Below, piece by piece: positions 5,601 to 64,000 of a stretch of 64,000 nucleotides of DNA (position 1 is its first letter; every line of letters begins with the position of its first letter). The stretch is taken from positions 58,909,195 to 58,973,194 of the forward strand of contig OY997639.1 of the NCBI GenBank assembly GCA_963921795.1, in the 5' to 3' direction. The translations under genes and the position numbers were made by a program. Below the pieces are notes generated by a model. That model was not told the origin of the DNA. It was given only the letters and a program-made list of their open reading frames with translations, and did not search any database. The stretch comes from Nannobrachium achirus (taxonomy: Eukaryota; Chordata; Actinopteri; Myctophiformes; Myctophidae).

Positions 5601-8600
5601 CACACACACACACACACGCGACGGCGACGTGGCGTGACATTGCAAAAATACGTTATTTCTCATAACATATTATATGTCTGCATGTTTACGTTAGTGCAAA
5701 ATGGTATTAAAACGTGATGAAACGGCACTATTGCATCGTTTATTAAAATAATACGAGTCGAGTCTGATTCCGCCATGTTTTCACGGACCAATCAGAGTCC
5801 ACTAGACTCTCACGTGGGCAGAGGACACCAATCAGAGTCCACAAGCGAGTCTCACGTGAGCTCAAGAGCTCTGTTTGGAGGGGGCTGGGACCGGAGCAGC
5901 CAAACCACGTGCCCCAAGCATACAACCCTGATTGGCCCATTCAATGCGCCCGCTCTTCAGGCGGCTCGAAATAAAATAAAATATGTGCATTTTCAGTCCA
6001 CACTACAAACCACCCACCAGCAGGGGGTGGTGATGTGCGGACTGAAGTATCAGGCTATGGTTGTACAGGTGGGTGGTGACCCAGCTGAAGTTAGCCACAC
6101 CCACAGTGTTGGGTGTATGGTAAAAGGGGAGGGGATGATTATATGATGTCATTTAATCTGTGTTTTTCGAGTGGGCCTTTTGAGGCCCAGTCTTTCAGCT
6201 TTCAGGAAGTAAACACAACTACACAGGGAAGACAAATCTGCACATTATAACACCACCAGGTGGCCTATTAGAATAATGTTAACTTCATAGACACATACAA
6301 AACAGAAAAAGTACAAAACTATGGCACCACCTCTTTAAGCAATGTTGTAATATTGCGATTATGCAACAGTTACCCTTAAAAAATCTATTTCAACCAATCA
6401 GATTGCTTCGTGGGAACTACCTGTTGTATAATGAGAAAGCCTAGTAAATGACATAGCCTAGTAAACTGACTCCTCCTGCCTTCTAAAAGTGACATACTAT
6501 GCCTTTAAAGAGATGTGTTCTGACAGTTGACTGTCTTTGAGTACTGTGATACAACGCCTGTGCTCCTGCAGGTATTGTGTGTGTGGTATGCATGCTGCTG
6601 GGCCTGGGCTTCACCACCCGCTCCGGCAACTACTGGTTCACCATGTTCAACGACTACGGTGCCACCTTCTCCCTGCTCTTCATCGTCCTCCTGGAGGTTA
6701 TCACCGTCAGCTATATCTACGGCATAAAGAGGTGTGTTTGTTTTATATTTGAAATGGTCCATGAAGCCTGGACTTCATGGAATCTTTGTTTTGTTTTTGT
6801 GACATGAATTCCATGCTTCATGGGATGTGTAAGGGATATTTTTTATCGTGATAATCTGTTCTTTAGTTCGAAAAAAGTCAGTAGAAAAAAAGCTTGTTTT
6901 GACCAAAAAACACAACCTGAGAAAAGAATCAGAGATAATTGAATTTTTCTAAAACTGCGCAACACAACAAGTGGGACTCTCCTCTTTATAGCTCCCAAGA
7001 ACCACCAGCAACAAGGTTTTTTATGTGTTTTATTCAAAAGCGATTGACTTCAGGGTGGGTGTTTTAAAATGTAAATTTTTAAAACAATAACCAAAATAAA
7101 CGTACATAAAAACCTGAAGAACCTAAGAACCTGGACTGAACATAAGAATCTAAGAAGCTGAACTTACCTATCAAATCAAAAGAAGCTGTCCACTGGTGGA
7201 CCAATGGAAACAAAACAGGCTTCTGGTCTTTGGACAATTTGTACCGTAACTGTACTGTTTTCAGGATATCTTACTGTCAAATCAGACTAATGGTGTGGAA
7301 CATAATCCTTATGGAACACCATAACTATCACAACAGAAATAAAATGTTCAAGCAAAGAAATCTTGCACATGCGAGGAACAAAATAGCTGGATATAGCAGG
7401 TAATTAAATGAAAGTATAAAATAAATCATACCTTCAAACATTTAGCAAAGTCGGCAGATCTCAGAACAAAATGTGTACTGTACAAAGAAAACAGATATAA
7501 ACAGTGTTAAAACTTTTTTGAATCTCCAACTGACAGGCCCTTGGAACACTTCTGTAAAATCAGCAGACATTTTTAAGTTAAACTTTGATTTGTTGAAATC
7601 CTTCAATGTAAAATGAATTTCACTTGTACCCTCTGTGAATTCAATTAACACAGGATTTTATTGTGTGAGAAACGGCCATTTACAGCTCCATCAGGGCTCT
7701 GATGTCATCAATGCGTGACGTCTTCCTCTCTGCATTCTTCTTGCCGAAGGCCTTCTCCACCAGGTCCTGCTTCTGCCTCTGGATCTGGACCATCTTCTCC
7801 TCTACCGAGTCCTTCACAATGAACTTGGTGACCACCACCTTCCTCTTCTGCCCCAGGCGGTGGCAGCGGTCAATACACTGTTCCTCAGCTGCCGGATTCC
7901 ATGCCGGATCCATGAGAAAGACGTGAGATGCGGCAGTTAAGTTAAGCCCCACCCCTCCGGCTTTGAGAGACAGGAGCATGATGACGGGGCTGTCGGGAGC
8001 GAGGTTCTGGAAATCCTGGATGACCTGGGTGCGTTTCTTCTGGCTCATGCTGCCATCCAGACGAACAAAGCTGAAGCCTTGCTCCCTGAGTGGGATCTCC
8101 AGTATATTGAGGAAGCGTGTGAACTGAGAGACAACCAGACATTTGATGGTGCCGTCCTTATTCCGCAGACGGAGTAGATTAGCCATCAGAGCGTCCACCT
8201 TTGAACTGGTCCTCCACTTCTCAGATTGCATCTCGTCTTTCTCCTCCAACTCCTCTGGTGGAACCTCCACCAGTTGGCTGGTCTTAATGTCACTTCGACA
8301 GAGAGGACAACGTGCCCTGTCCTGTTCGGTGCTGATGACCCGGGCGATGCAGGTGCGGCAGTAGACGTGGGCGCAGTGTGTGATGACGGGCAGATGCAAC
8401 GACTCCAGACACACGGCACACTCCTCGTCACAGCCGCTGGCCAGCACCAACCTCAGCTTCTGTATCAGACGCTCTTGTAGCTCAGACGGCGTGTTAGGCG
8501 AACCCAGGTCTTTAAGTATTTTGGCCACCAGAGCAGGGTGGCAGCAGTGCTGTCGAAGCCTCATCAGGATGGCCAGCACATCAGCATAGTTCCTCATCAC

Positions 8601-11600
8601 GGTACCCTCAGCCACGTATCTGTTTAGGGTGGTCCTTCCCTCATTTCGTGCCAGCTCGTACTCGCTTCTCTCCTGAGGGGTCATTTCAACCTGCTCCACA
8701 CACACCATCTTCTCTGGCAGAGACACCAGGGGATGCCCATTCACCATGCTGGACTTGGTTCTCCTCAGGGTGATGCTCTTCACCAGAGTCTGGAGGTTCC
8801 TGAGGCCATCCCTGTTTCCCTGTGCGACAGGTCTCTGGATGACCCTCTCCCACCACTGCTTCACATCAAAGGGCTTCAGACATAGGAAGGCCATCAGCAT
8901 CCACAGGTCTTTCACACTGTTCTGGATGGGCGTTCCGGAGAGTATCCAGCGGCGATATGCTTTCAGCGCCAGCACAGCCTTGCTCATCTGTGCATTGGGG
9001 TTCCTTATCACATGTCCCTCGTCTAACACCACCCTCAGCCAATTGACCTCATGGAGGGGACTGTTATTCCCGAAGTCAGCAGAGAGGACGTTGTAGGTGG
9101 TCAGCACGATGTCCTGAGAGGACAGAAATGTTTTGTTTCTGTTGCGGTCCGAGCCGTAATACACATACACATTGAGCTTCACATCAGGAGCAACATGCTG
9201 CTCAAATTGGTTCAGCCAGTTACTAAGCACAGACAGCGGGCAGATGATAAGAGTGGCTCGGGCTGACAGGTCCTCTTCAGTGTCAGTGATTGAAGATTCC
9301 ATGCCAGAATTTGGAGTGGACCTCTTGGTCTTTGAGCATCCATCTGATGTTGATCCACTCAGCACTTGCACAAATTCTACATCCTCGTTTAATGTAGGGG
9401 CCTCTTTACTGGCCTTTGACTTGGCGGCTTTACGCTTGTTATTTCTTTTCTGTGGCTTGCCGGATTCTTCAACTACCTCTGATGAATCGACGAACACCAC
9501 ATCATCCTGGGAACTGGCATGGTCTAAACAGCCTGATGCTGCATTTATCACGTCAGTGTTATCCGGTTGATCACTGCCTCCATCTGTTTTTTGCGCCTTC
9601 CTTGGGCTGGCAGATTGTGCCTCACACTTCTCTAGAGGCATGGGCTTTCCCTTGTGGAAGTTAGTGAGGATTAGAGCAATGGTTGTCAGCGTTTTACCCA
9701 GTCCCATGTCATCAGCCAGTATACCCCCATGGACCCTCTGGGGCCTTTCTCTGGTATTGAAGCATGTGATGCTGTGGTAGTAGAACTCTCCTGTCATGGA
9801 CCAGAAGGGTGGCAGACCAGTGTTGTTCTCACATGCACACATCCAGGACAAGGCCTGCTTCTGGTGGGTCAACAAAGGAGTGCACACAGACTCTGCAGCT
9901 TCTTTCTCTCCGTCTTTACTCTCCATCAGACCTTCAAATAGATTGTCAAAGGCATTCTTCAACTCCTCTGCAGACAGTGGGATGGTTAAACCCATTGGTT
10001 TAGTTCCAGTTAGGTTTAGTCCTCCAGGTGGGTTTAGTCTGAATCCATGCCCTGTCATTTGTTCAATCACAGCATGTTTGTGCTCTTCTTTCCCCCAGAA
10101 AGTCAACATCACTGGCATATTGAAAGCGTTGTTTTTTCCCTTGTGCACCAACCCCTCTATTTTTGCCAAGTTGTTGTCCATGACATATGCCATGGCTGCT
10201 GCCAACTCTCGTTTGATATGTCCCACCTGTCTGCCGTACGTGTTAGCCACCATCACAGCATTACGGTCATATGGATTCCGGGGTTCCCGCACAAGAGCGA
10301 CCATTTCCCCTGGGTTCACCACTCCAGTATAATATCTGAGGCCAACCACAGTGCCCTGCATCTGACCAAAATGCACAATGCCATCTGCACCTGGTTCCTC
10401 CTCAGACAATGCAGCAGCTATAGCCTGGGAGAGCGTCTCTGTAACCGCATGTGGGTCATTGTAGATGTCCACACAACTGTCCCTGTCAAATTGCCATCTG
10501 CGAGAAGTCATTGTGTGGTCTTGGTAGCAAGTTATGATTGATTTGACTCAGCTCAGTCAGTTACTCTACTCTACTCACCTGAGTTAGCTTTGTTTTGCTG
10601 AAATTTGGGATGACATCATTTCCGGTTTATCCGTCTCCTATAGCAACCTAGCACCGTTCGTACATTGGTGAAGAGTGCCCTCTAGCGTAATCACTGAAAA
10701 TCCTGAAATGACAGGGCGGTGAACCTTGGATTTTAAATGATGTCTCAAGACGTCAATGACGGTAAATGTGTATTAAATAGGTGACTGAAATCATCAGTTA
10801 CAGATTGTCTGTCATCATCACATGACCAATCAAAAGAGGTAAAAAAATCTTACCTGTGCGAAGTGAGTTGTGCTCCCTTCACATGGTATCAGACATGACA
10901 CACGTGCATACAGTATCTCCTTGTATAGGCCGTTCTGTCCATGACATCAGCTTTCTATGACGTTAGTCTCGTATGACATTAGTCTCGTGCTCATACGGAC
11001 ATAGGGACATAGGGACCTAAACACAAAGCCAGAAGTAGGAGCGGTTAGCACCACTCAAAAATGTAATTGATGAAGCGATTGACAATATACAAGGAAATTA
11101 GGAACAGTTGATCAGTATAAAAGGCAGATAATAAGTTAAATGAGATCAAAATTAAACAGTAAAGAGAATACAAAAATTCAAGAAGATATGTGTCCGAACA
11201 CAGCTGAGGGCTAGTCATTGAATTTTTTTTTTTTTTTCATTTTCATTTTTTTTTTTTTTGTAGATATGGCTTATAGAGTTATGCCATGCAGAAATACTAG
11301 ATCTGAGAAATGCAGCCTTTTAGATGAAATGTAACCTGCAAAATGTGAGGTTTCTCTTCACATTAATTAAGTCTTATTTACATGCAGAGTTATTAAGCTC
11401 TGGCGTTTAAGTGAAATGTAGCCTGATATTTATGAAATGCTTTTGTGGCTTTATCACATTTTAGAAAAATAAATAAATAAATAAATAATTTCAGGGCTGG
11501 TCTAAAGCTGTGCTTTCCGAAATGACTGCCCCTCTGCTATGCTGGGTCACATATTATTGGCCTAAATAGTCAAAGCCATAAATAATGGCACCACACAATG

Positions 11601-14600
11601 GGGAGCATAGATTCAATATGTTACATCTGCTGCTGTGCAGAATAAAAAGTGTCAGTCACACGGTATCTTAATTATACTTTTTGGTCAAAATTGATCCCAT
11701 CCCAAAGCGCCAGCGCTCGCCCAGCGAGCATGGTGGCAGACTGCCATCACTGCAGGCAGATGTGTGCATGCGCCCATGTGCACACGCCCTTAGGCGTCTT
11801 ACTAGTAGTTATTATTATTACTAATATTCTAATGTTCTGTTTGCCCAGGTTCGAAAAAGACATCGAAGACATGCTGGGCCACCGGCCCAACTGGTACTGG
11901 AAGATCATGTGGGCGGTGGTCAGTCCTCTGCTCCTCATCGCGCTCTTCCTCTTCTACATCGTCAACTACATCCGAGGAGGGACGCCCACCTACCCAGCCT
12001 GGGACAAAGACACGGTGAGACCACCCACCCACCCACCCACCCAGCTCTGTCTGATCTGTGGCTCTGCCTACTGTTCAGTTCAATTCAGTTCAGTTTAGTT
12101 TATTTTCAGCTCTTTTGGACAACAAAATACATACAGTACATACCTGTACAATGTGCATTATTGCAATTTGAGCAAGGCACAAGTTGTCCATTTGTTGTCC
12201 AATACTGCAGTGTTAATCAAATAAAACTGTGACTAAATGTAATTTTGTTGACAATAAGAAACTAGACTAAAATGCTAGCCCCCGCTACTAATGGAGACAT
12301 TTTATGCTTGGCGTCGTACTCCAAAAATAGCAGATCTGCAAGCTCTAGAATCTTAATTATATTTATTCAACTAAAACTAGATTCAAAGTAAAACATTTCA
12401 GATTACTAAAATATGAACTAAATGGAATTTTATTCAAAAGATTATGACTAAAAGCTAAAACTAAATAAGAAATGGAGTTGGAACAACTTAAGTTCGGGAG
12501 GAGATGTAGCCAAGCAGAGGACAATCAACCACCTCAAACCAGCCACTGGTAACTCCACCCATGCCACCCTGTGCCAACCACTCACCCGTCTCCTATCAAG
12601 CCGACAACTCCTCCTCTACCAATCACGGTGGTATATAAACCCAACTTGAAAAAATTGTGGTGTGCATAGTTTCCAGTAAACGCAGCAAGCTTACAGCCAA
12701 ACGTTGAACGCTCCTTTCCTAAACAACATTATACAGGGGCGGCATAGCTCATAGCTCATAGCTCAGGGGTAGAGAAACTGGTATTAGAGCACGAAGGGTA
12801 TAAATCCCGAAGGGTTCCCAGTTCGAATCCGGGCTCCCCCTGAGTTAATGTCGAAGGGTCCTTGGGCAAGACTCTGAACCCCTAATTGCCTCCGGTGAGT
12901 AGGTTGGTGCCTTGCATGGCTTCCTCCGCCACCGGTGTATGAATGTGTGTGTGAATGGGTGAATGTAATGCACAATCTATGTAAAGCGCTTTGGATTAAA
13001 AGCGCTATATAAATGCACCATTTACCATTTACCATTTATACACCTTCTATCAATAACCTCCAGAATAGCAAACCTACAAATCTACGCTTCCGACAACGAG
13101 GATATTTACAACCCCCGTCTTCAACAAACTTCTACTCACCATCCTGCAGCCACCGTCCCAGACACTCCACCACGACAGGTTAAATCCACCGTTTCCATTC
13201 TTTCTTCTCTCCTCCGTACTCCACGCGAACTCCGAAAGCTGTACCTTACTCCTCACCAACGGCGCCAGCCACCATCAGCTCAGCAAACCCACCGCTCTTC
13301 TCCCCGCAACCCAACTCACCGCTCCCCCCGCCAACACATCGCCCCATCACCAACTATCATGTCCGACTGCGACCTCTCATCATGCAAAATGCTCCACATG
13401 TGCACCTTCTGTGCCGGCGCCCACTCCCGCATCATCTGTCCTCAGAAACAAAACAATTCACCAGAATATCAACCATTCCTGTTGGCATCAAGTTCACAAA
13501 ACCATTAACTGCCCCTCCTCATCCTCATCTCCTCATGCCCTCATCTTCTCAGGCCCCCCAGAAACAAACAAAACATCTAACATCAACCATCCCTGTCTAC
13601 CTGTGAGGCATCAACGTCACAAAACCAGCAATCTGGCTAGCCATCGTCAAGAAAAGGGACTGCCCACTTGTCCCTACTCTGTCTCGAGAGAATGCAAAAC
13701 CAGTAACAGCCTCTCCTCATCAAACATCCTCAAGCCACCATACTACTCAACTGCCTCCAAAGGAACAAAATAAGACTTCCCCCATAACGCCCGCCCCTCA
13801 CCATCCAAATTCTAGCTAGGCGTGTCCACGTCCTACGCAGCGGCTACACAGATGCCCACACAGACACAACGCTCTAAGCAATATCCCCACTGGTTTCTTT
13901 TGGGGTCTTCTAAGATGCTCAGAGATTCACCTGGCTGACGTAATTCCTTCTCTCACTTTCATCATCTAACAACACCACTCCCATCTTCATCTTCTAACTC
14001 GACTCCTCAGCCCCTACGAACCCCTCCTTAATTACATATACTCCCGACGTGCACAGCAAACTTCTCCTTCAGGCCCACATTCCATCACCAACCACGGTTC
14101 TGTTGTCACCCGCATATGGTTCCATTCTCACCTCCGACTGGTTCCCCCCAACCGATACTCTCCAGAACCTTCTCCAGTCACTCTTTTAGAATCGGAGCCG
14201 CATCCACAGCATCAAGCAAGGGAGTTCCCGACCACTTCATACAAATCCTCGGCCGCTGGTCTTCCCAAGCCACAGCTACATCCACAGCTACATCCGTTCC
14301 AACTCCCCAGACCTCCATAACGCCCAACTCTCCATGATCTCGTAATCCCACAATCCGATTCTTTTGGGGTCTCTCTACATACTACATTAGCACTCTGCAT
14401 TCTTGGCCGTTTGCGCATGCGATGCGTCCATAAACGACCATACACCAAAACCTAAATGTTGTTCGTGCCCTTGACCATCTAAGCTGCACACTGCACGCTT
14501 GTGTGTAGTGCTGACCTTAGATGACCATTAGCACTCTGCATTCTTGGCCGTTCATGCCGCAGATCTCATGCCACGCATGCAATGCGGCGCGCCCATAAAT

Positions 14601-25260: not shown

Positions 25261-52441
<27,181 letters not shown>

Positions 52442-52545: not shown

Positions 52546-52551
52546 ACCAGT

Positions 52552-53331
52552 AACAGTAAGACTCCCTAATAGGGCAAAAAATTGTTTTTCCAAAATCTTC
52601 CTGATCCACGTTGATGACATGAGTGTAGACATGCTGTGTAGTGATTTTCGTGATTTTAGGGCAAAATCTGTAGGAGTCCAAAAATGTGTTTTTAAAAATC
52701 GGCCTGAAGGTGGCGCTATATGGGGCAGATTCATGTTGATGGGATGAGTGTAGACATACTGTGTAGCGATTTGCGTGATTTTAGGGCAAAAACTGTAGGA
52801 GCAGTGTCCAAAAATGTGTTTTAAAAATCGGCCTGAAGGTGGCGCTAGAAGAGGGCCATGTGAGAAATGAGGGGTGGGGTCTCCGCGTTGCCTTGGCGGA
52901 CGAATAGGTACAGGCCCCGGCTCTCCCGGACGCTCCTAGCCCGAGTTACGGCATTTTATGTGAGCTGCAGTGGAGGGGGTCCTCCACTGGGGGCGCCACC
53001 ACTTTTGCATCCGTTCTGGAGCACCAGGAGTGGGTGGTCCCCAGGAATTCCCCGTGAGCAGCCCCGTTGGGGTGGTCATTTGGTCATTTTTGCACATTTG
53101 GTCATTTTTTACACCTGGGGGTCCCCCAGGGACCTGGGGGTCCCTGAAGCTCCGGGGGTCCTTGGAGGTTGTAGTTTGGCAGGTAAGGAGTGTGTGTGCA
53201 AAATTTGGCATGGATGGGGGCAACGGTTGTGGAGATATGAGCAGGGCAAAAGTGTGACGTGTGACGGACGGAGAGACAGACAGACAGCCGGTGGAGGTTT
53301 TGGTAGTAAATGCGACCTACGGTCGCAATAA
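52552..53331 (+). repeat. CCAGTAAGACTCCC-family element, first type
   Basis: Starts AGTAAGACTCCCTAATAGGG and ends with the hairpin TGCGACCTACGGTCGCAATA. The interior is the TGGCGCTATA-type sequence with TTGGTCATTTT tandem pieces and GGGGGTCC blocks, then GTGTGACGTGTGACGGACGG and GGCCGGTGGAGGTTTT-like tail. Non-coding. Confidence 0.65.
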
Positions 53332-53350
53332 ATATTGATATGGTTATGAA

Positions 53351-54143
53351 CCAGTAAGACTCCCTAATCGGGAGATAAGCGACCGTTGGTCGCTTATCTC
53401 CACAAATAGGCCAAAAGTTTGTTTTACCAATTATTACACTCTATGTGAACATTTACATCAACAAATCCCAAGTACTATGCAGAACGACCCATTTCAAGTT
53501 TTTAATGTACAACAATATTTAGAAAATAGGTCTACAAGCTGACAGTCCTCGTCCCTTATATTCCCATAGGTTATATGGAGATCTCAGTGTTTGTCAGTCC
53601 TTGTTCATTTATGCCCATATATGGACATCTCTATATCTACTGTAACAGTCCTTGTCCCTTTATGCCCATATATGGAGATCTCTTAACTGTAAGTCCTTGT
53701 CCCTTTTATGCCCATATATGGATATTCCTGATGTCATCAGTATATGAACATATATGGGCTTTCTGATATGCCCATATATGGAGATCTCTTAACTGTAAGC
53801 CCTTGTCCCTTTTATGCCCATATATGGATATCCCTGATGTCATCCGTATATGCCCATATATGGGCTTTCTAATATGCCCATATATGGAGATCTCTGTATC
53901 TCCATATATGGGTATAAAAGGATACTTCAGGTCTGACATCAGGTTTGTTTATATTGGGTTGCTAGGTTTGACATCACAAACTCTATGGGCCATCTGACCT
54001 AGAAATCTATATTTGGGCATAGATGACTCATCGTGACCTCATCACACGTCGACCGCACGTGTGACGTGCGGTCGACCGCACGTGTGACCGACGGACGGCC
54101 GGTGGAGGTTTTCATACTAAACTGCGACCTTACGGTCGCAATA
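53351..54143 (+). repeat. CCAGTAAGACTCCC-family element with CArG boxes
   Basis: Starts CCAGTAAGACTCCCTAATCG, then the hairpin GGAGATAAGCGACC-GTT-GGTCGCTTATCTCC. About eight CCATATATGG boxes lie at 53603-53915. Ends GGAGGTTTTCATACTAAACT then GCGACCTTACGGTCGCAAT. A head-to-tail neighbour of the previous element. Confidence 0.8.
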
Positions 54144-54215
54144 AGCAGATTTAGCAGCAGTACAGTGATTTCCCTACAGAGGGCGGTGTAGAGCAGCAGT
54201 ACTTGTTTGTAGAAC

Positions 54216-54461
54216 ACTAGAGGTTCGCGGCCCTTCGGGCCGCTCACATCTAGAGTCCACGCCCGCCTTTTTTTTTTTTTTTTAATTAAAAAAAAAAAGT
54301 AAAAAAAAAAATTTTTTTTTTTGAAAAAAAAATAAAAAAAAATTTGAATACAATTTTTTTTTTTTTAATAAAAAAAAGTTTTGGCCTAATTGTGTTATTA
54401 TTGTTACTGTAATAGGCCTGCCAATGTTTTATTTTCATTATTTCAATGTTTTCATTTTAGC

Positions 54462-54547
<86 letters not shown>

Positions 54548-54625
54548 GTATCTTGCTGTGAACTCTAGAGGTGGCCCGAAGGGCCGCGAACTTCTTGTAA
54601 GATACAGGCTCTCGGCTAGCGATTG

Positions 54626-54695
<70 letters not shown>

Positions 54696-54902
54696 CCTGT
54701 GCAGCGCCCCCCCCCTTCCCTCTTGTAACCTGAGACTCTCTCTCTCTCTCTCTCTCTCTCTCTTGCTCTCTAGCGAATGAGCGGACGGCATAGGGTTAGG
54801 GGCGGTATTCCTTACGCCCTAGACGACTACCTATGAATTGAAGTGGATGTAAAGGGGGCGTGGAAGTGGGATGCGGCAATAAGCCCATTGTAAATATAAG
54901 AT
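54216..54902 (+). repeat. Compound-microsatellite interspersed repeat, copy 2
   Basis: Closely matches 1548-2172, with expanded A/T and TC tracts. (CA)n 54462-54520, (CAGA)n to 54548, (TC)n 54627-54693 and 54735-54762. Confidence 0.85.
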
Positions 54903-55045
54903 AGGAGTAGCCTAGTAGCCTACAGTGACTGTGGCGGTGTGTAGAATATAAAAAAAAATTACAATTCAGCTCAAATCCAGCACTAAAGAATGACAGCATT
55001 TTTATTCATGTTTTCAGCAGGGGTGCCAATTTCACAGAGGTCTAA

Positions 55046-55125
55046 AACCGCAGCTACAAGCTATCAGCGCATAAGCTAACAGCGCATATAGATCTGCGAC
55101 GTTAGCTTGTAGATCTATTATTTTT
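55046..55125. repeat. AGCAGATC short palindrome, diverged copy
   Basis: AAAACCGCAGCTACAAGCTA pairs weakly with TAGCTTGTAGATCTATTATT, with internal duplication of the arm. Confidence 0.5.
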
Positions 55126-55136
55126 AATAATAATAA

Positions 55137-55250
55137 CCAGTAAGACTCCCTAATCGGGAGATAAGCGACCATTGGTCGCTTATCTCCTGTCACACTGCTG
55201 ACATCAGTATGACATCACACCGTACACAAATGACCCTTATATAAGACCGG
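55137..55250 (+). repeat. CCAGTAAGACTCCC module with TATA-type promoter motif
   Basis: Module start at 55137 with hairpin, then TGACATCAGTATGACATCAC and CCCTTATATAAGACCGG. This is an inverted copy of the 35.8/58.5-kb sequence. Confidence 0.6.
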
Positions 55251-55296
55251 AATTATCTACCGACAGATTAGTAACAAGATGTCAAAATCATTGAAG

Positions 55297-55526
55297 GTTT
55301 ACCCTACTAACCAACTGTTTACCATAGCAACCATGTTTTTTACCTTAGCAACCAACTGTTTACCCTAGCAACCAACTGTTTACCACAGCAACCATGTTTT
55401 TTTTACCCTAGCAACCAACTGTTTACCCTAGCAACCAATTGTTTACCATAGCAACCATTTTTTCTTACCCTAGCAACCAACTGTTTACCCTAGCAACCAA
55501 CTGTTTACCATAGCAACCATGTTTTT
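55297..55526. repeat. 20-bp tandem array ACCCTAGCAACCAACTGTTT
   Basis: About ten units of ACCCTAGCAACCAACTGTTT with ACCATAGCAACCATGTTTTT variants. TAGCAACC resembles an RFX half-site and CAACTG a MYB/E-box core. The reverse complement occurs at 56638-56770 and another + copy at 61660-61782. Confidence 0.85.
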
Positions 55527-55552
55527 TTACAGGGCCTGGGATTGATGACATC

Positions 55553-56320
55553 AGAAATCTCCATATATGGGCATGAAAGGGATTTTGTTTCTGGAAATAT
55601 GTCTGTGGGGTGCCACATTTGGAATAAAACACTTACATCACACATCTGGATATCCATACAGCCCCTTCTAGTTTGCCTGTGTCCATTTATGCCCATATAT
55701 CTGATGACATTGGGACAATGATCTCCATATATGGGCATAAAACTTATGTTAATAAGTAAAGCCTGGGGATCTCCATATATGGGCATGAGGGGTACCCTAA
55801 AAGGGCATCATCTGGGAATAGCAAATATAGTTATCCTAGAAAGTGAAAATCTTACATCAAAGGCCATAACTACCTACCTACCACCGTACTGCATTCCTCA
55901 TTAAACTACCTACCAGTAAGATGCCTAAGGGAGAAAAGCAAAGGGCGAGGTTGCACCATTTCTTGGTCTTCTGGCCAGTGATGTATATCGGACCATTTAA
56001 CCATATATGGAGACATCTGGTACCCATAGATATTCACAGATATGGGCTTAATATTGATGACATAAGGGATCTCCATATATGGGCGTAAAAGGGATTTGGT
56101 TCCCCTGGCATCACAGGGATCTCCATATATGGGCATAAAATGGATTTGGTTACCCTGGCAACACAGGGATCTCCATATCTCCATATATGGGCATAAAAGG
56201 GATTTGGTTCCCCTGGCATCACAGGGATCTCCATATATGGGCATAAAAGGGATTTGGTTCCCCTGACATTACAGTGATGTCAGTGGCTGTTTCTACAGAG
56301 GGGATCTCCATTTATGGGCA
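55553..56320 (-). repeat. CArG-box array (ATCTCCATATATGGGCATAAA)
   Basis: Eight or more CCATATATGG boxes in the orientation CTCCATATATGGGCATAA. At 56073-56240 they are spaced by GGGATTTGGTTCCCCTGGCA units. CCATTTATGG at 56310 also fits CC(A/T)6GG. Confidence 0.85.
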
Positions 56321-56637
56321 TAAAAGGGAATGTATGTATGATGATGTCAGATATCATAGACGTCATAGGACTTTCACATAACGAATAACTGAGTAAGCAT
56401 GTAAACCCGTAAAATCTATATTTGGGCATGGCTGATTTATGACCTCATCATGATGACACGAGCAAACACAGCTGAATTGTATAAATGATCAGTGCAGAAA
56501 CCAACAGAAGTATTTGACCAAGACTCTTGATCTTCAAGAACCCTGAGAACCTGTATTGTTTGGTATTTTACCATTTTTGGTGTTTGAAATGTTGAACTGG
56601 ACTTTACATCGTGAAAGTGGATTCAATATATTGAGAC

Positions 56638-56770
56638 TAGGGTAAACAAATGGTTGCTATGGTAAACAGTTGGTTGCTAGGGTAAAAAAACATGGTTGCT
56701 ATGGTAAACAGTTGGTTGCTAGGGTAAACAGTTGGTTGCTAGGGTAAAACCATGGTTGCTAAGGTGGTTG
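56638..56770. repeat. 20-bp tandem array, inverted copy
   Basis: GGTTGCTAGGGTAAACAGTT units, reverse complement of 55297-55526. The two arrays bound the CArG block between them as a long inverted repeat. Confidence 0.85.
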
Positions 56771-56904
56771 CTAACGTACACTAACAGACCAGCAACAACA
56801 GACTGTTGCCACAGCAACGTACACAAAGGTTTGTGTACACATGTGGTGTGATGTCATACTGATGCGGAGATATGAGCAGGGCAAAGGTGTGACGTGTGAC
56901 GTGT

Positions 56905-57600
56905 GACCGACCGACCGACCGACCGACCAACCGACCGACCGACCGACCGACGGACCATAATATAACCAGTAAGACTCCCTAATCGGGAGATAAGCGACCG
57001 TTGGTCGCTTGAGCAGGGCAAAGGTGTGACGTGTGACGTGTGACCGACCGACCGACCGACCGACCGACCGACCGACCGACGGACGGCCGGTGGAGGTTTT
57101 GATACCAGTAAGACTCCCTAATCGGGAGATAAGCGACCGTTGGTCGCTTATCTCCACAAATATCACAACCTCCACCTCTCACGTCATACGGGTAGCCATA
57201 GTTACACCTGGAATGTTGAATCTCCATATATGGAGATAACCTACGCATCACACAAAGTCTGACCTCACCAGCCCATACTTGGGCATGGACGACTTATATC
57301 TCCATATACGGAGATGGCCATATATGGAGATACGATGACATCACAGAGTCCACAGCTGATGATGTGGCGTGATGTCATACAATAAACAAACAAGCCCTAT
57401 ATACTGATGCGATACGATGACATCACAGAGTCCACAGCTGATGATGTGGCGTGATGTCATACAATAAACAAACAAGCCCTATATACTGATGCGGAGATAT
57501 GAGCAGGGCAAAGGTGTGACGTGTGACGTGTGACTGAACCGACCGACGGACGGCCGGTGGAGGTTTTCATAGTAAACTGCTCCCTGACGGTCGCAATAAC
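56905..57600 (+). repeat. CCAGTAAGACTCCC-family units with GACC microsatellites
   Basis: Module starts at 56966 and 57105. (GACC)n runs at 56906-56952 and 57043-57080. CCATATATGG in CTCCATATATGGAGATAACC at 57223. TGACATCA/TGATGTCA motifs at 57327-57460. Ends with CTGCTCCCTGACGGTCGCAA. Confidence 0.75.
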
Positions 57601-58312
57601 CAGTAAGACTCCCTAATCGGGAGATAAGCGACCGTTGGTCGCTTATCTCCACAAATAGGCCAAAAGTTTGTTTTACCAATTATTACACTCTATGTGTACA
57701 TTTACATCAACAAATCCCAAGTACTATGCAGAACGACCCATTTCAAGTTTTTAATGTACAACAATATTTAGAAAATAGGTCTACAAGCTCACAATGCTAC
57801 GCATTGTCCTCGTCCCTTATATTCCCATAGGTTATATGGAGATCTCAGTGTTTGTCAGTCCTTGTTCATTTATGCCCATATATGGACATCTCTATATCTA
57901 CTGTAACAGTCCTTGTCCCTTTATGCCCGGAGATCTCTTAACTGTAAGTCCTTGTCCCTTTTATGCCCATATATGGATATTCCTGATGTCATCAGTATAT
58001 GAACATATATGGGCTTTCTGATATGCCCATATATGGAGATCTCTTAACTGTAAGCCCTTGTCCCTTTTATGCCCATATATGGATATCCCTGATGTCATCC
58101 GTATATGCCCATATATGGGCTTTCTAATATGCCCATATATGGAGATCTCTGTATCTCCATACATGGGTATAAAAGGATACTTCAGGTCTGACATCAGGTT
58201 TGTTTATATTGGGTTGCTAGGTTTGACATCACAAACTCCATGGGCCATCTGACCTAGAAATCTATATTTGGGCATAGATGACTCATCGTGACCTCATCAT
58301 GATTTCAATCGC

Positions 58313-58321
58313 TATAAAAGG
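58313..58321 (+). promoter_or_regulatory. TATA box of repeat-borne promoter, copy A
   Basis: TATAAAAGG about 105 nt before the ATG at 58419, preceded by GATGACTCATCGTGACCTCA (AP-1/CRE-like) and upstream CArG boxes. Transcription is inferred. Confidence 0.55.
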
Positions 58322-58418
58322 ACTCTCAGTGACATACACTCTCCACAGATAAAGCAGTCAACCAGCCTACCAGTCAACCCATTCTTTGATTACTTTGTAC
58401 AACTAGATTAACTTTTCA

Positions 58419-58544
58419 ATGGCATCCCCACTGGAATTGACCGAAATGTACGACAGACAATGCCGGTCTTATACCAGGAAAGAAGCATTTCTTCGACTCA
58501 GACCTTATCGCCAGGGTTGGCTTATAGCAGCTGTCGGTAGATAA
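58419..58544 (+). CDS. Repeat-borne 41-codon ORF of unknown function, copy A
   Basis: ATG to TAA, starting MASPLELTEMYDRQCRSYTR and continuing KEAFLRLRPYRQGWLIAAVG. It lies downstream of a TATA box and is identical in both 2-kb tandem copies; a third copy (35774) shares the first 18 codons and then diverges. I recognise no family. It may be only the start of a longer lost gene, or chance coding in a repeated transcript. Confidence 0.35.
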   Translation: MASPLELTEMYDRQCRSYTRKEAFLRLRPYRQGWLIAAVGR

Positions 58545-60326
58545 TGCCGGTCTTATATAAGGGTCATTTGTGTACGGTGTGATTTGCCATGGTTACTCAT
58601 TGAAGTTGAATCTCCATATATGGAGATAACCTACGCATCACACTAAGTCTGACCTCACCAGCCCATATTTGGGCATGAGCAACTTATGTCTCCATATATG
58701 GAGATATGATGACATCACACAGTCCTCAGCCGATGATGTGGCGTGATGTCATACAATACACAAACGAGCCCAGATATGAGCAGGGCAAAGGTGTGACGTG
58801 TGACGTGTGACCGACCGACCGACCGACCGACCGACCGACGGACGGCCGGTGGAGGTTTTGATACCAGTAAGACTCCCTAATCGGGAGATAAGCGACCGTT
58901 GGTCGCTTATCTCCACAAATATCACAACCTCCACCTCTCACGTCATACGGGTAGCCATAGTTACACCTGGAATGTTGAATCTCCATATATGGAGATAACC
59001 TACGCATCACACAAAGTCTGACCTCACCAGCCCATACTTGGGCATGGACGACTTATATCTCCATATACGGAGATGGCCATATATGGAGATACGATGACAT
59101 CACAGAGTCCACAGCTGATGATGTGGCGTGATGTCATACAATACACAAACAAGCCCTATATAAAGGGGCAATTCTCACCAGGGAAGAGAGCATTGCCTGG
59201 AATGTTGAATCTCCATATATGGAGATAACCTACGCATCACACAAAGTCTGACCTCACCAGCCCATACTTGGGCATGGACGACTTATATCTCCATATACGG
59301 AGATGGCCATATATGGAGATACGATGACATCACAGAGTCCACAGCTGATGATGTGGCGTGATGTCATACAATAAACAAACAAGCCCTATATACTGATGCG
59401 ATACGATGACATCACAGAGTCCACAGCTGATGATGTGGCGTGATGTCATACAATAAACAAACAAGCCCTATATACTGATGCGGAGATATGAGCAGGGCAA
59501 AGGTGTGACGTGTGACGTGTGACCGACCGACCGACCGACCGACCGACCGACCGACCGACCGACGGACGGCCGGTGGAGGTTTTCATAGTAAACTGCTCCC
59601 TGACGGTCGCAATAACCAGTAAGACTCCCTAATCGGGAGATAAGCGACCGTTGGTCGCTTATCTCCACAAATAGGCCAAAAGTTTGTTTTACCAATTATT
59701 ACACTCTATGTGAACATTTACATCAACAAATCCCAAGTACTATGCAGAACGACCCATTTCAAGTTTTTAATGTACAACAATATTTAGAAAATAGGTCTAC
59801 AAGCTCACAATGCTACGCATTGTCCTCGTCCCTTATATTCCCATAGGTTATATGGAGATCTCAGTGTTTGTCAGTCCTTGTTCATTTATGCCCATATATG
59901 GACATCTCTATATCTACTGTAACAGTCCTTGTCCCTTTATGCCCGGAGATCTCTTAACTGTAAGTCCTTGTCCCTTTTATGCCCATATATGGATATTCCT
60001 GATGTCATCAGTATATGAACATATGGGCTTTCTGATATGCCCATATATGGAGATCTCTTAACTGTAAGCCCTTGTCCCTTTTATGCCCATATATGGATAA
60101 CCCTGATGTCATCCGTATATGCCCATATATGGGCTTTCTAATATGCCCATATATGGAGATCTCTGTATCTCCATATATGGGTATAAAAGGATACTTCAGG
60201 TCTGACATCAGGTTTGTTTATATTGGGTTGCTAGGTTTGACATCACAAACTCCATGGGCCATCTGACCTAGAAATCTATATTTGGGCATAGATGACTCAT
60301 CGTGACCTCATCATGATTTCAATCGC

Positions 60327-60335
60327 TATAAAAGG
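60327..60335 (+). promoter_or_regulatory. TATA box of repeat-borne promoter, copy B
   Basis: TATAAAAGG in the same position as 58313, with the AP-1-like TGACTCA at about 60293. Confidence 0.55.
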
Positions 60336-60432
60336 ACTCTCAGTGACATACACTCTCCACAGATAAAGCAGTCAACCAGCCTACCAGTCAACCCATTCTT
60401 TGATTACTTTGTACAACTAGATTAACTTTTCA

Positions 60433-60558
60433 ATGGCATCCCCACTGGAATTGACCGAAATGTACGACAGACAATGCCGGTCTTATACCAGGAAAGAAGC
60501 ATTTCTTCGACTCAGACCTTATCGCCAGGGTTGGCTTATAGCAGCTGTCGGTAGATAA
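60433..60558 (+). CDS. Repeat-borne 41-codon ORF of unknown function, copy B
   Basis: Same 41 codons and stop as 58419-58544. No recognised domain; basic (several Arg) and lacks a signal peptide. Coding status unproven. Confidence 0.35.
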   Translation: MASPLELTEMYDRQCRSYTRKEAFLRLRPYRQGWLIAAVGR

Positions 60559-61458
60559 TGCCGGTCTTATATAAGGGTCATTTGTGTACGGTGTGATTTG
60601 CCATGGTTACTCATTGAAGTTGAATCTCCATATATGGAGATAACCTACGCATCACACTAAGTCTGACCTCACCAGCCCATATTTGGGCATGAGCAACTTA
60701 TGTCTCCATATATGGAGATATGATGACATCACACAGTCCTCAGCCGATGATGTGGCGTGATGTCATACAATACACAAACGAGCCCAGATATGAGCAGGGC
60801 AAAGGTGTGACGTGTGACGTGTGACCGACCGACCGACCGACCGACCGACGGACGGCCGGTGGAGGTTTTGATACCAGTAAGACTCCCTAATCGGGAGATA
60901 AGCGACCGTTGGTCGCTTATCTCCACAAATATCACAACCTCCACCTCTCACGTCATACGGGTAGCCATAGTTACACCTGGAATGTTGAATCTCCATATAT
61001 GGAGATAATAACCTACGCATCACACAAAGTCTGACCTCACCAGCCCATACTTGGGCATGGACGACTTATATCTCCATATACGGAGATGGCCATATATGGA
61101 GATACGATGACATCACAGAGTCCACAGCTGATGATGTGGCGTGATGTCATACAATACACAAACAAGCCCTATATAAAGGGGCAATTCTCACCAGGGAAGA
61201 GAGCATTGCCTGGAATGTTGAATCTCCATATATGGAGATAACCTACGCATCACACAAAGTCTGACCTCACCAGCCCATACTTGGGCATGGACGACTTATA
61301 TCTCCATATACGGAGATGGCCATATATGGAGATACGATGACATCACAGAGTCCACAGCTGATGATGTGGCGTGATGTCATACAATAAACAAACAAGCCCT
61401 ATATACTGATGCGATACGATGACATCACAGAGTCCACAGCTGATGATGTGGTGTGATT

Positions 61459-62760
61459 GCGACCGTCAGGGAGCAGTTTACTATGAAAACCTCCACCGGC
61501 CGTCCGTCCGTCGGTCGGTCACACGTCACACGTCACACGTCACACCTTTGCCCTGCTCATATCTCCGCATCAGTATGACATCACACCACATGTGTACACA
61601 AACCTTTGTGTACGTTGCTGTGGCAACAGTCTGTTGTTGCTGGTTTGTTAGTGTACGTTAGCAACCACCTTAGCAACCATGGTTTTACCCTAGCAACCAA
61701 TGTTTACCCTAGCAACCAACTGTTTACCATAGCAACCATGTTTTTTTACCCTAGCAACCAACTGTTTACCATAGCAACCAGATACGCAGAGCAGGGATCT
61801 CCATATATGGGCATAAACAGGTGACATCACGCTGATGTCAGACACTCAGAGCAGGGATTTCTCCATAATATATGGGCATAAAAGGGATTCTGTTAGGGAT
61901 CTCCATATATGGGCATAAAAGTGATTCTGTTAGGGATCTCCATATATGGGCATACAAGGGATTCTGTTAGGGATCTCCATATATGGGCATAAAAGGGATT
62001 CTGTTAGGGATCTCCATATATGGGCATAAAAGGGATTCTGTTAGGGATCTCCATATATGGGCATAAAAGGGATTCTGTTAGGGATCTCCATATATGGGCA
62101 TAAAAGGGATTCTGTTAGGGATCTCCATATATGGGCATGAAAGGGATTCTGTTAGGGATCTCCATATATGGGCATAAAAGGGATTGTATCCCAGATGATG
62201 CCCTGTTAGGAGATCCACACTAACAGAATCCATAGATGGTCCTACCGACAGCTGCTATAAGCCAACCCTGGCGATAAGGTCTGAGTCGAAGAAATTCTTC
62301 TTTCCTGGCAAGAATTGCCCCTTTATACTGTAGGGCTCGTTTGTGTATTGTATGACATCACGCCACATCATCGGCTGAGGACTGTGTGATGTCATCATAT
62401 CTCCATATATGGAGACATAAGTTGCTCATGCCCAAATATGGGCTGGTGAGGTCAGACTTAGTGTGATGCGTAGGTTATCTCCATATATGGAGATTCAACT
62501 TCAATGAGTAACCATGGCAAACTGTCAACTGCCCGTATGTCTTGATAATTGGTAAAACAATTTTTTTGGCCTATTTGTGGAGATAAGCGACCAACGGTCG
62601 CTTATCTCCCGATTAGGGAGTCTTACTGGTGTCATTGCGACCGTCAGGGAGCAGTTTACTATGAAAACCTCCACCGGCCGTCCGTCCGTCGGTCGGTCAC
62701 ACGTCACACGTCACACCTTTGCCCTGCTCATATCTCCGCATCAGTATACCAGTAAGACTC
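61459..62760 (-). repeat. Inverted segment of the CArG-repeat family
   Basis: Reverse complement of family pieces: right end (61459-61570), 20-bp arrays (61660-61782), a 37-bp CArG array (61863-62171), the 41-codon ORF/TATA region (62235-62335) and the CCAGTAAG start module (62577-62629). Confidence 0.8.
61863..62171. repeat. 37-bp CArG minisatellite
   Basis: CCATATATGG starts at 61903, 61940, 61977, 62014, 62051, 62088, 62125 and 62162, an exact 37-bp period. A ninth box at 61863 is broken by a 3-base insertion. Unit GGGATTCTGTTAGGGATCTC then CATATATGGGCATAAAA. Confidence 0.95.
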
Positions 62761-63335
62761 CCTAATCCACAAATAGGCCAAAAGTTTGTTTTACCAATTA
62801 TTACACTCTATGTGAACATTTACATCAACAAATCCCAAGTACTATGCAGAACGACCCATTTCAAGTTTTTAATGTACAACAATATTTAGAAAATAGGTCT
62901 ACAAGCTGACAGTCCTCGTCCCTTATATTCCCATAGGTTATATGGAGATCTCAGTGTTTGTCAGTCCTTGTTCATTTATGCCCATATATGGACATCTCTA
63001 TATCTACTGTAACAGTCCTTGTCCCTTTATGCCCATATATGGAGATCTCTTAACTGTAAGTCCTTGTCCCTTTTATGCCCATATATGGATATTCCTGATG
63101 TCATCAGTATATGAACATATATGGGCTTTCTGATATGCCCATATATGGAGATCTCTTAACTGTAAGCCCTTGTCCCTTTTATGCCCATATATGGATATCC
63201 CTGATGTCATCCGTATATGCCCATATATGGGCTTTCTAATATGCCCATATATGGAGATCTCTGTATCTCCATATATGGGTATAAAAGGATACTTCAGGTC
63301 TGACATCAGGTTTGTTTATATTGGGTTGCTAGGTT
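62751..63335 (+). repeat. CArG-repeat element, copy nearest the ACSBG gene
   Basis: Starts CCAGTAAGACTCCCTAATCC without the hairpin. It carries the 62975-63285 CArG array (eight perfect boxes) and stops at TTGGGTTGCTAGGTT. Unique sequence follows. Confidence 0.8.
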
Positions 63336-63512
63336 AGACGGAATGTGATGTCACAATGTGATGTCATAGGTCAGCTATAGACAATTTGAGGCTATACGTA
63401 TACATTGAGAGGTTGAGGCGTTAACCTTTGTATTTAATTGTGTAAATATCAAATCTGCTTGCATAAATCAGGAGAGAAAAGGTGATTACTTTGTATGATG
63501 ACAGAATAATGC

Positions 63513-63521
63513 TATAAAAGG
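63513..63521 (+). promoter_or_regulatory. TATA box of ACSBG-family gene
   Basis: TATAAAAGG about 200 nt before the start codon in unique sequence; TGATGTCA sites lie at about 63346-63368. Motif and position only. Confidence 0.6.
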
Positions 63522-63719
63522 CTTGACCTATTTAAACATTGTTGTTCAAAGGACGTTGGAGTAGTGAAACTTTGCAGAAATATACCAAACAAAACCAGCA
63601 GACGAGACAAAAGAAGAGAACAGAGGGAACCTAACTACCTAATGAAAGTAGTGAGCTCTTGATCTTCAAATCCAGGAGCTCTCCTTTGAACGTGCCTGTT
63701 GAGAGAGCTCAGTAGTGCC

Positions 63720-64000
63720 ATGTGGAGCTCAGCCTCCCAGCCTGTTTCATCAACAGTAGATGCGTCTCGTCTGTGGACATCCAAAAGCAATGAGGAAGTG
63801 ACACTAAGAATAGAGTCTGGTGTGAACGATGAGCCCCCAATAATGGTCCACCAGATGTTCACCACATCTGTGGAGCGCTTCGGCAACTTCACTGCTCTTA
63901 GCTGGAAGGACGGGCAGCAGCAGAAGGTTCTTAGCTACAAAGATTACTACCTGACCTGTCGTACGGCAGCCAAGAGCTTCCTTAAGCTCGGTCTTGAATG
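63720..64000 (+). CDS. acsbg2: Bubblegum-family long-chain acyl-CoA synthetase, 5' part, cut by window end
   Basis: ACSBG enzymes activate long and very long fatty acids to acyl-CoA with ATP. The first 93 codons are seen: MWSSASQPVSSTVD, then SRLWTSKSNEEVTLRIESG, PPIMVHQMFTTSVERFGNF, DYYLTCRTAAKSFLKLGLE. The LWT start, HQMF..SVERFG and AAKSFLKLGL are typical of the ACSBG N-terminus; the AMP-binding motifs lie beyond the window. ATG 63720 is chosen because an in-frame stop lies at 63687. A TATA box lies about 200 nt upstream. The gene is divergent from sacm1l across 11 kb of repeats. The paralogue (acsbg1 or acsbg2) cannot be settled; acsbg2 is the common teleost annotation. Confidence 0.82.
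   Translation, partial: MWSSASQPVSSTVDASRLWTSKSNEEVTLRIESGVNDEPPIMVHQMFTTSVERFGNFTALSWKDGQQQKVLSYKDYYLTCRTAAKSFLKLGLE

Follow-up and report, generated by a model that had tools for sequence, protein, structure and literature searches.

The palindrome block and its units

The stretch analysed here, 64,000 nucleotides from the genome of the fish Nannobrachium achirus (C2:58909195-58973194, hereafter the window), contains at 52550-63330 a block that is packed with exact copies of the CArG palindrome CCATATATGG, called the core below. By direct counting, 80 cores are present in the whole window and 62 of them lie in the block, with starts ranging from 53615 to 63269. When the block was shuffled with its dinucleotides preserved (n=200), the mean was 0.07 cores and the maximum 1. 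The degenerate pattern CC(A/T)6GG was found 67 times in the block, compared to 1.4 expected. The dense palindromes described in the initial annotation, which was made from the letters of this DNA, are thus borne out, and so is the strong excess over shuffled sequence that it proposed to look for. Outside the block, two smaller clusters were found at 25895-26351 (n=9) and 34855-35521 (n=9), and all one-mismatch relatives of the core (17/17) are located within the same three clusters. When the 80 cores were classified by their flanks, 36 had a TATGC-type left and an AGAT-type right side and 20 the reverse, the AGAT type stood on either side in 9 and the TATGC type in 5, and 10 were ambiguous. 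Both phrasings of the unit given in the initial annotation are therefore present, but they represent one unit in opposite orientations and not separate units.

The conserved part of the unit is the 18-mer ATGCCCATATATGGAGAT. It fits ATGCCCATATATGGWNNT, which an excerpt of PMC2553773 lists as the consensus for SRF, and 45 of the 80 window cores fit this consensus completely. In the consulted part of a review on the cytomegalovirus major immediate-early promoter (PMC13322095), GCCCATATATGG is given as its SRF site. By its sequence the unit is an SRF-type site, as had been proposed, and SRF is the binder predicted from the motif; enhancers or a sink for SRF, both suggested in the initial annotation, would be possible roles of such sites. 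Two other kinds of words are also enriched in the block, TGATGTCA/TGACATCA (45 versus 0.8) and GTTGCTA/TAGCAAC (28 versus 0.8), while TGACGTCA occurs 0 times and shows no enrichment. We take TGATGTCA to be similar to a cAMP response element (CRE) and the GTTGCTA/TAGCAAC words to be similar to an X-box; the naming of SRF, CREM and RFX as binders is a guess from the shape of the motifs.

The 62 cores of the block are not independent sites, as the block is a nest of near-identical duplicated segments. This construction explains the strong redundancy of the cores: clustering of all 80 by their flanks yielded 15 clusters (60 bp, 80%), 5 clusters (50 bp, 75%) or only 3 (40 bp, 75%). On the forward strand, a tandem duplication of approximately 2 kb (57207-59444 versus 59196-61457) shows 98.2% identity. 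One segment, A, located at 53465, recurs at 35065, 57714, 59730 and 62832 with 96.1-99.8% identity, and its last copy (62832..63339, + strand) carries the last core at 63269-63278. Tandem arrays in the window have periods of 37, 50 and ~106 bp. These include a 37-bp minisatellite of the core unit (61868..62185, + strand, 8.6 copies, 97% matches) and segment C, a 50-bp tandem array of the same unit at 56065..56278. In addition, a 20-bp X-box-like array of GTTTACCCTAGCAACCAACT, which presumably resembles RFX sites, is found at 55297..55530, with similar arrays at 56637-56765 and 61684-61780.

Carrier families X and Y

The cores are associated with two families of elements, X and Y, which were compared to the Helitron criteria given in the part of PMC4067079 consulted, including a 5′ TC after A, a 3′ CTRR followed by T and, ~11 bp before the 3′ end, a palindrome of 16-20 nt. 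The Helitron-like family X element of the window is found on the reverse strand at 25740..26761 (start possibly 26768) and contains 9 exact cores, counted over 25748-26769. Its 5′ end is TCTATCTATAAATGCGA, preceded by A, and its 3′ end is TTCTAG, followed by T; one hairpin arm is missing. The overall structure of the family is an A, an element running from TC through a hairpin to CTAG, and a T. The A precedes the TC in 27 of 28 distinct flanks, the search pattern itself starting with TC, and the T follows CTAG in 14 of 14, the search pattern itself ending in CTAG. The 3′ hairpin (z -6.5) is 27 nt long, with 6 nt between it and the end; the window copy was folded from a stretch that stopped 8 bases before the element end. 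In its ends, family X agrees with these Helitron criteria, with a hairpin that is longer and nearer to the end.

Family Y is present at 34.6-36 kb and 53.3-62.7 kb of the window. Its elements terminate in hairpins (3′ hairpin z -7.0) and CTTACTGG followed by T. The 3′ end GGGAGTCTTACTGG was found in 12 copies, of which one lacks the long hairpin, and the next base was T in 12/12. The opposite end TTGCGACCG was found in 7 copies, preceded by A in 6 and by G in 1. In the sampled loci described below, the base before the 5′ end was A in 11/17 and G in 6/17 cases, and T followed the 3′ end in 13/13. The 3′ end, CTGG followed by T, fits the CTRR rule, while the flanking bases, A or G before and T after, do not correspond to the T-T target of Helentrons and HINEs. 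Judged by its ends, family Y would be neither a canonical Helitron nor a Helentron, and the T rule together with the hairpins suggests that it moves like one of them.

By our pairing of the ends, five elements of family Y with cores have both ends. Four are on the reverse strand: 35020..35991, with the promoter-like segment A and 7 exact cores; 53351..54141, also with segment A and 8 cores; 57105..57596, with a B2-type segment and 2 cores; and 58864..59612, with B2-type segments and 4 cores. The fifth, at 61457..62629, has the opposite orientation (+ strand) and 11 cores. Together with the X element, these five hold 41 of the 80 window cores. A further Y 3′ end is found with a B1-type segment and 2 exact cores at 34638..35019 (- strand), and a Y-like element with the variant 3′ end CTTACTGT and without cores at 52553..53328 (- strand).

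We then searched the whole genome (1.66 Gb). The 19-mer unit GCCCATATATGGAGATCTC was found in 15,574 copies, while its reversed control was found in 0. The exact Y end AGGGAGTCTTACTGG was present 30,518 times (reversed control 1) and was followed by T in 30,293 cases (99.3%), which reads as the 3′ rule of Helitron insertion. Fifty loci were sampled from the first 100 places of GCCCATATATGGAGATCTC, all on contig 1, leaving out overlaps (L004-L006, L008) and seven places in tandem series at 2.337-2.369 and 2.519-2.524 Mb; L009-L011 are near-copies of each other. The 50 loci hold 388 cores and 254 full 18-mers. Marks of the families were found in 42 of the 50 (X in 29, Y in 8, both in 5), although a core that shares a stretch of 3-10 kb with such a mark need not lie inside an element. 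These counts support the earlier proposal that a repeat family has multiplied strong SRF-type sites. Segment A of the window is 100% identical over 580 bp to copies in L013 and L050, 99.8% identical to that in L036 and 100% identical over 307 bp to that in L025. Such identity across contigs suggests that family Y moved very recently or still moves.

The genome also encodes potential partners. The Helitron Rep domain PF14214 gave 150 scored matches among 245 candidates, many of them in open frames of >2,000 codons and in near-identical groups, while it was found in 0 of 14 control genomes. In ten sampled Rep loci, eight of which covered 3.5 kb around the domain and two the 4 kb upstream of it, neither the core nor X ends were found. 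One locus, L064, harbours a Y-like 3′ end, CTTACTAG followed by T; from there it is 317 bp to the first ATG of a Rep frame, which hints at a candidate partner of family Y. On contig 1 up to ~4.08 Mb, where the places of both are completely listed, a 19-mer was at most 1.5 kb away from 4 of 100 Y ends and at most 2.5 kb away from 7 of 100, and conversely 5 of 35 19-mers had a Y end within 1.5 kb; these are lower bounds, since only the exact 19-mer variant was counted. Core arrays are a minority cargo of family Y. The idea that the element's mobility protein recognises the palindrome is not supported: few Y ends have a 19-mer nearby, and the sampled transposase loci have no cores.

Several other arrangements were observed in these searches. 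Eight exact Y 3′ ends follow each other at C1:1850166-1850586, mostly with 57-bp spacing, as a satellite of Helitron ends, and five Y ends on the same strand with 2.2-2.3 kb spacing form a tandem element series at C1:3130853-3139633. At C9:8184767-8266861 (- strand), four Rep domains in long open frames are located ~27 kb apart on the same strand, which looks like tandem autonomous-looking Helitrons or a duplicated segment. A KLHDC2-like kelch frame (L007, 2605-3018, + strand; Pfam E 3.8e-24) lies ~400 bp outside an X element with cores, on the side of its 5′ end. The 19-mer GCCCATATATGGAGATCTC was absent from the viral_contigs set, and no viral gene was seen among the frames scanned, a scan narrower than a full virus search.

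Promoter-like cargo and conservation of the core

The cargo of family Y has the layout of a promoter. In segment A the order is cores, TGATGTCA, the TATA box TATAAAAG at 58313 and a start codon at 58419; the TATA box and 41-codon frame (58313..58421, + strand) are also found at 60433 and, shortened, at 35774. The 41-residue peptide gave no Pfam, PDB or NCBIfam match. In segment B the cores are followed by TGATGTCA, CCCTATATAAAGG and a leader. The cores of both segments are irregularly spaced and stand beside the TATA box and start codon. A similar order was found in L010 (almost identical to L009), where two cores, several TGATGTCA/TGACATCA words, TATAAATA and a leader with CTCGACTCAGACCTTATCGCCAG precede an open frame of 225 codons. 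This promoter-like stretch and its leader are collinear with the Y-borne copies (61-71% over 176-301 bp), and no Y marks were found there. Part of the L010 leader recurs in L034, in segment A of the window and at 62241-62309. The L010 stretch, in front of a putative gene, is our top candidate for the type of host promoter taken up by the elements, and a putative donor. That the promoter of the gene flanking the block gave rise to segment C, via the shared 14-mer CTCTTGATCTTCAA, was also considered and is not supported (E 0.06 in a tiny search).

It had been claimed that the core stays intact more often than its flanks. This holds between diverged units, which were identified without using the tested block: the core was intact in 42/46 (20/23 distinct), while an equal-length left flank was intact in 18/76 (6/34 distinct), the flanks differing partly because the units mix two flank types. 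With a looser threshold, the values were 56/77 and 18/158. Likewise, in the comparison of L010 with segment B the cores were identical at 20/20 positions and the rest at 104/201 (p 5e-6), although the cores may have anchored the aligner; the corresponding core values were 19/20 for L034 and 20/20 for B1.

Between copies of the same unit, on the other hand, the claim hardly holds or fails. Five recent copies of segment A showed 4 of 12 changes in cores, which make up 90 of 766 columns (p 0.043 toward more change; changes were counted by hand and shared ones once). Between B1 and B2, 1/30 core positions and 15/156 other positions had changed (p 0.48). One X unit was aligned over 121 distinct copies from 41 sources, with an anchor motif starting 14 columns to the right of the core. 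Identity was 0.910 in the core, 0.84 in the 7 columns to its left and 0.89 in the 13 columns to its right, and the core was intact in 73 of 121 copies (0.60), compared to ~0.64 for the adjoining right-hand 10-mers. All other columns together had a mean of 0.707, with most of the shortfall in places where the alignment mixes different neighbours from the array, and the mean of the core was reached by 13 of the 122 other 10-bp stretches. These values come near to the equal decay of core and flanks across genome-wide copies that the initial annotation had named as evidence against its own proposal. Constraint on the core before capture is likely, while after capture little or none is visible.

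The beginning of the gene next to the block occupies 63513..64000 (+ strand), with TATAAAAG at 63513 and a first coding exon from the ATG at 63720. This TATA box is found 235 bp after the end of the last core (63278), and the gene's own upstream stretch carries TGATGTCA at 63346 and 63359. We take the start of its protein to resemble ACSBG; the Pfam AMP-binding domain was matched below the cut-off (E 0.11), and no PDB match was found. From its position, an effect of the array on this ACSBG-like gene is possible. Elsewhere in the window, an uninterrupted frame of 955 codons at 7683-10547 (- strand) contains SNF2, HIRAN, RING and Helicase_C domains; it is presumably HLTF-like and, being without introns, possibly a retrocopy. 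An exon-like frame at 11646-12095 (+ strand) matches the sodium:neurotransmitter symporter family (E 2.4e-11). A second repeat of ~700 bp with AC and TC microsatellites was found at 54208-54902 and 1540-2173 (82% alike), and 21-bp minisatellites around CGACCGGGACGCTAAAACCAC occur in both orientations at 42691-43329, where a large hairpin is possible.

Captured promoters as the probable origin, and known systems

From the ends, the cargo and the spread of the copies, we consider it likely that the block was formed by the nesting of young, non-autonomous rolling-circle elements of the Helitron type that carry promoter DNA as cargo. Such elements would have picked up pieces of host gene promoters, with read-through beyond the 3′ hairpin as the probable route, and would then have amplified them. 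The SRF-type cores would have been constrained in the source promoters, which would explain why they stand out between diverged units, and on the elements they would drift almost like their neighbours. Scattered through the genome, the copies would be potential promoter modules with SRF, CRE-like and TATA sites. A few of them may influence a nearby gene, for instance the copy that precedes the ACSBG-like gene. We see the cores as passengers and not as part of the transposition machinery, a role in transposition being disfavoured.

Several observations weigh against this reading, in addition to the possible anchoring of the aligner and the limited meaning of a nearby mark. Family Y starts with TTGCGACC and lacks the 5′ TC of canonical Helitrons, and the insertion of both families in the Helitron manner is predicted from their ends. 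Nearly half of the palindromes, 39 of 80, lie outside the six two-ended elements, in nested or cut copies. Among the sampled loci, 8 of 50 carry neither X nor Y marks; two of these (L028 and L041) resemble decayed X, and the other six could be assigned to neither family. In the comparison of L010 with segment B, the TGATGTCA positions were not significantly better conserved than the rest (29/48, p 0.18), and the 225-codon frame of L010 has no Pfam match and a single, meaningless PDB match (E 0.82). Finally, identity in the core of the X unit exceeds that of the adjacent columns by a little and the mean of the other columns by far more, so that weak protection on the elements is possible.

A further step would be ongoing rewiring, in which Helitrons capture promoters that share a grammar of SRF, CRE-like, X-box-like and TATA sites, perhaps owing to their open state in the germ cells in which the elements transpose, and place them upstream of genes such as the ACSBG-like one, which would come under one signal- or germ-line-driven control. 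We regard this as rather unlikely. It is similarly doubtful that the same Helitron cargo is read by a factor other than SRF, such as another MADS protein, YY1 or a germ-cell factor. The TTTTATGC side does belong to the conserved unit, and its TGATGTCA and X-box-like neighbours presumably point to germ-cell promoters, but the whole 18-mer fits the SRF consensus, completely so in 45 of the 80 window cores.

The copies might instead be domesticated enhancers, selected as SRF-bound enhancers or promoters of their neighbours with the core kept. The better preservation of cores between diverged units, an X unit core whose mean exceeds 109 of 122 other 10-bp stretches and an array that stops 235 bp before a TATA box all speak for this. 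The surplus of core changes among segment A copies, the lack of a difference between B1 and B2 and an X unit core hardly above its neighbours speak against it, and the Y copies are too young for selection to show; we consider domestication improbable. Even less probable is a plain minisatellite, in which slippage multiplied a unit that happens to hold CCATATATGG: the tandem periods of 37, 50 and ~106 bp are clear, but in segments A and B the cores are spaced irregularly beside a TATA box and start codon, the similarity of diverged units is centred on the core, and segment B matches a promoter-like stretch elsewhere. That the palindromes, multiple and present in two families, are kept for mobility as recognition sites of the elements' own transposase or a helper is very improbable, as few Y ends have the 19-mer nearby, the ten transposase loci lack the core and copies lose cores.

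If promoter capture by Helitron-type elements is the correct explanation, then a single species would allow capture, amplification and regulatory effect to be measured, on insertions young enough to be perhaps still segregating. The genome offers an SRF-type unit in many thousand copies, long open frames in its Rep genes and, still in place, a candidate for a promoter of the source type. The analysis also separates a motif conserved in source promoters from a motif conserved in the copies.

Related systems have been described. Family Y shares with Helentrons and HINEs, as outlined in PMC4067079, short inverted GCGACC/GGTCGC sequences near both ends, a 3′ stem loop and a possible Rep partner, but it ends in CTGG followed by T, has A or G before the 5′ end and does not use a TT target. 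The cytomegalovirus promoter (PMC13322095, as far as excerpted) has GCCCATATATGG as an SRF site beside CREB sites; this is a likeness of motif, and no common ancestry is suggested. In platyfish, the accessible part of PMC4021074 reports a testis gene captured by a Helitron; capture in a fish would be common to both cases, with a gene as cargo there and array-bearing promoter-like cargo here. Promoter spread by Helitrons in bats and CArG spread by Helitrons in Arabidopsis are already documented; among the top matches of a limited literature search, we recognised no report of an animal in which Helitrons spread arrays of SRF-type sites. According to the portion of PMC4778049 at hand, bat Helitrons captured promoters (HelibatN3/NUBPL) and amplified them to thousands of copies, and read-through capture was shown experimentally in the Helraiser model. 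Rolling-circle elements with a 3′ hairpin and thousands of copies are features in common, and a promoter plus 5′ coding bases would be the cargo here as well; different from the bats, several promoter-like pieces with SRF-type arrays are involved here, in two families. In Arabidopsis, RC/Helitrons distribute the CArG boxes of PHERES1, with chromatin immunoprecipitation and expression data (PMC6914339, in extract). Both systems would involve Helitrons that spread CArG-type sites of a MADS factor, with one motif per element and a plant MADS factor there, and dense arrays, as read from the DNA, in animal promoter-like cargo here.

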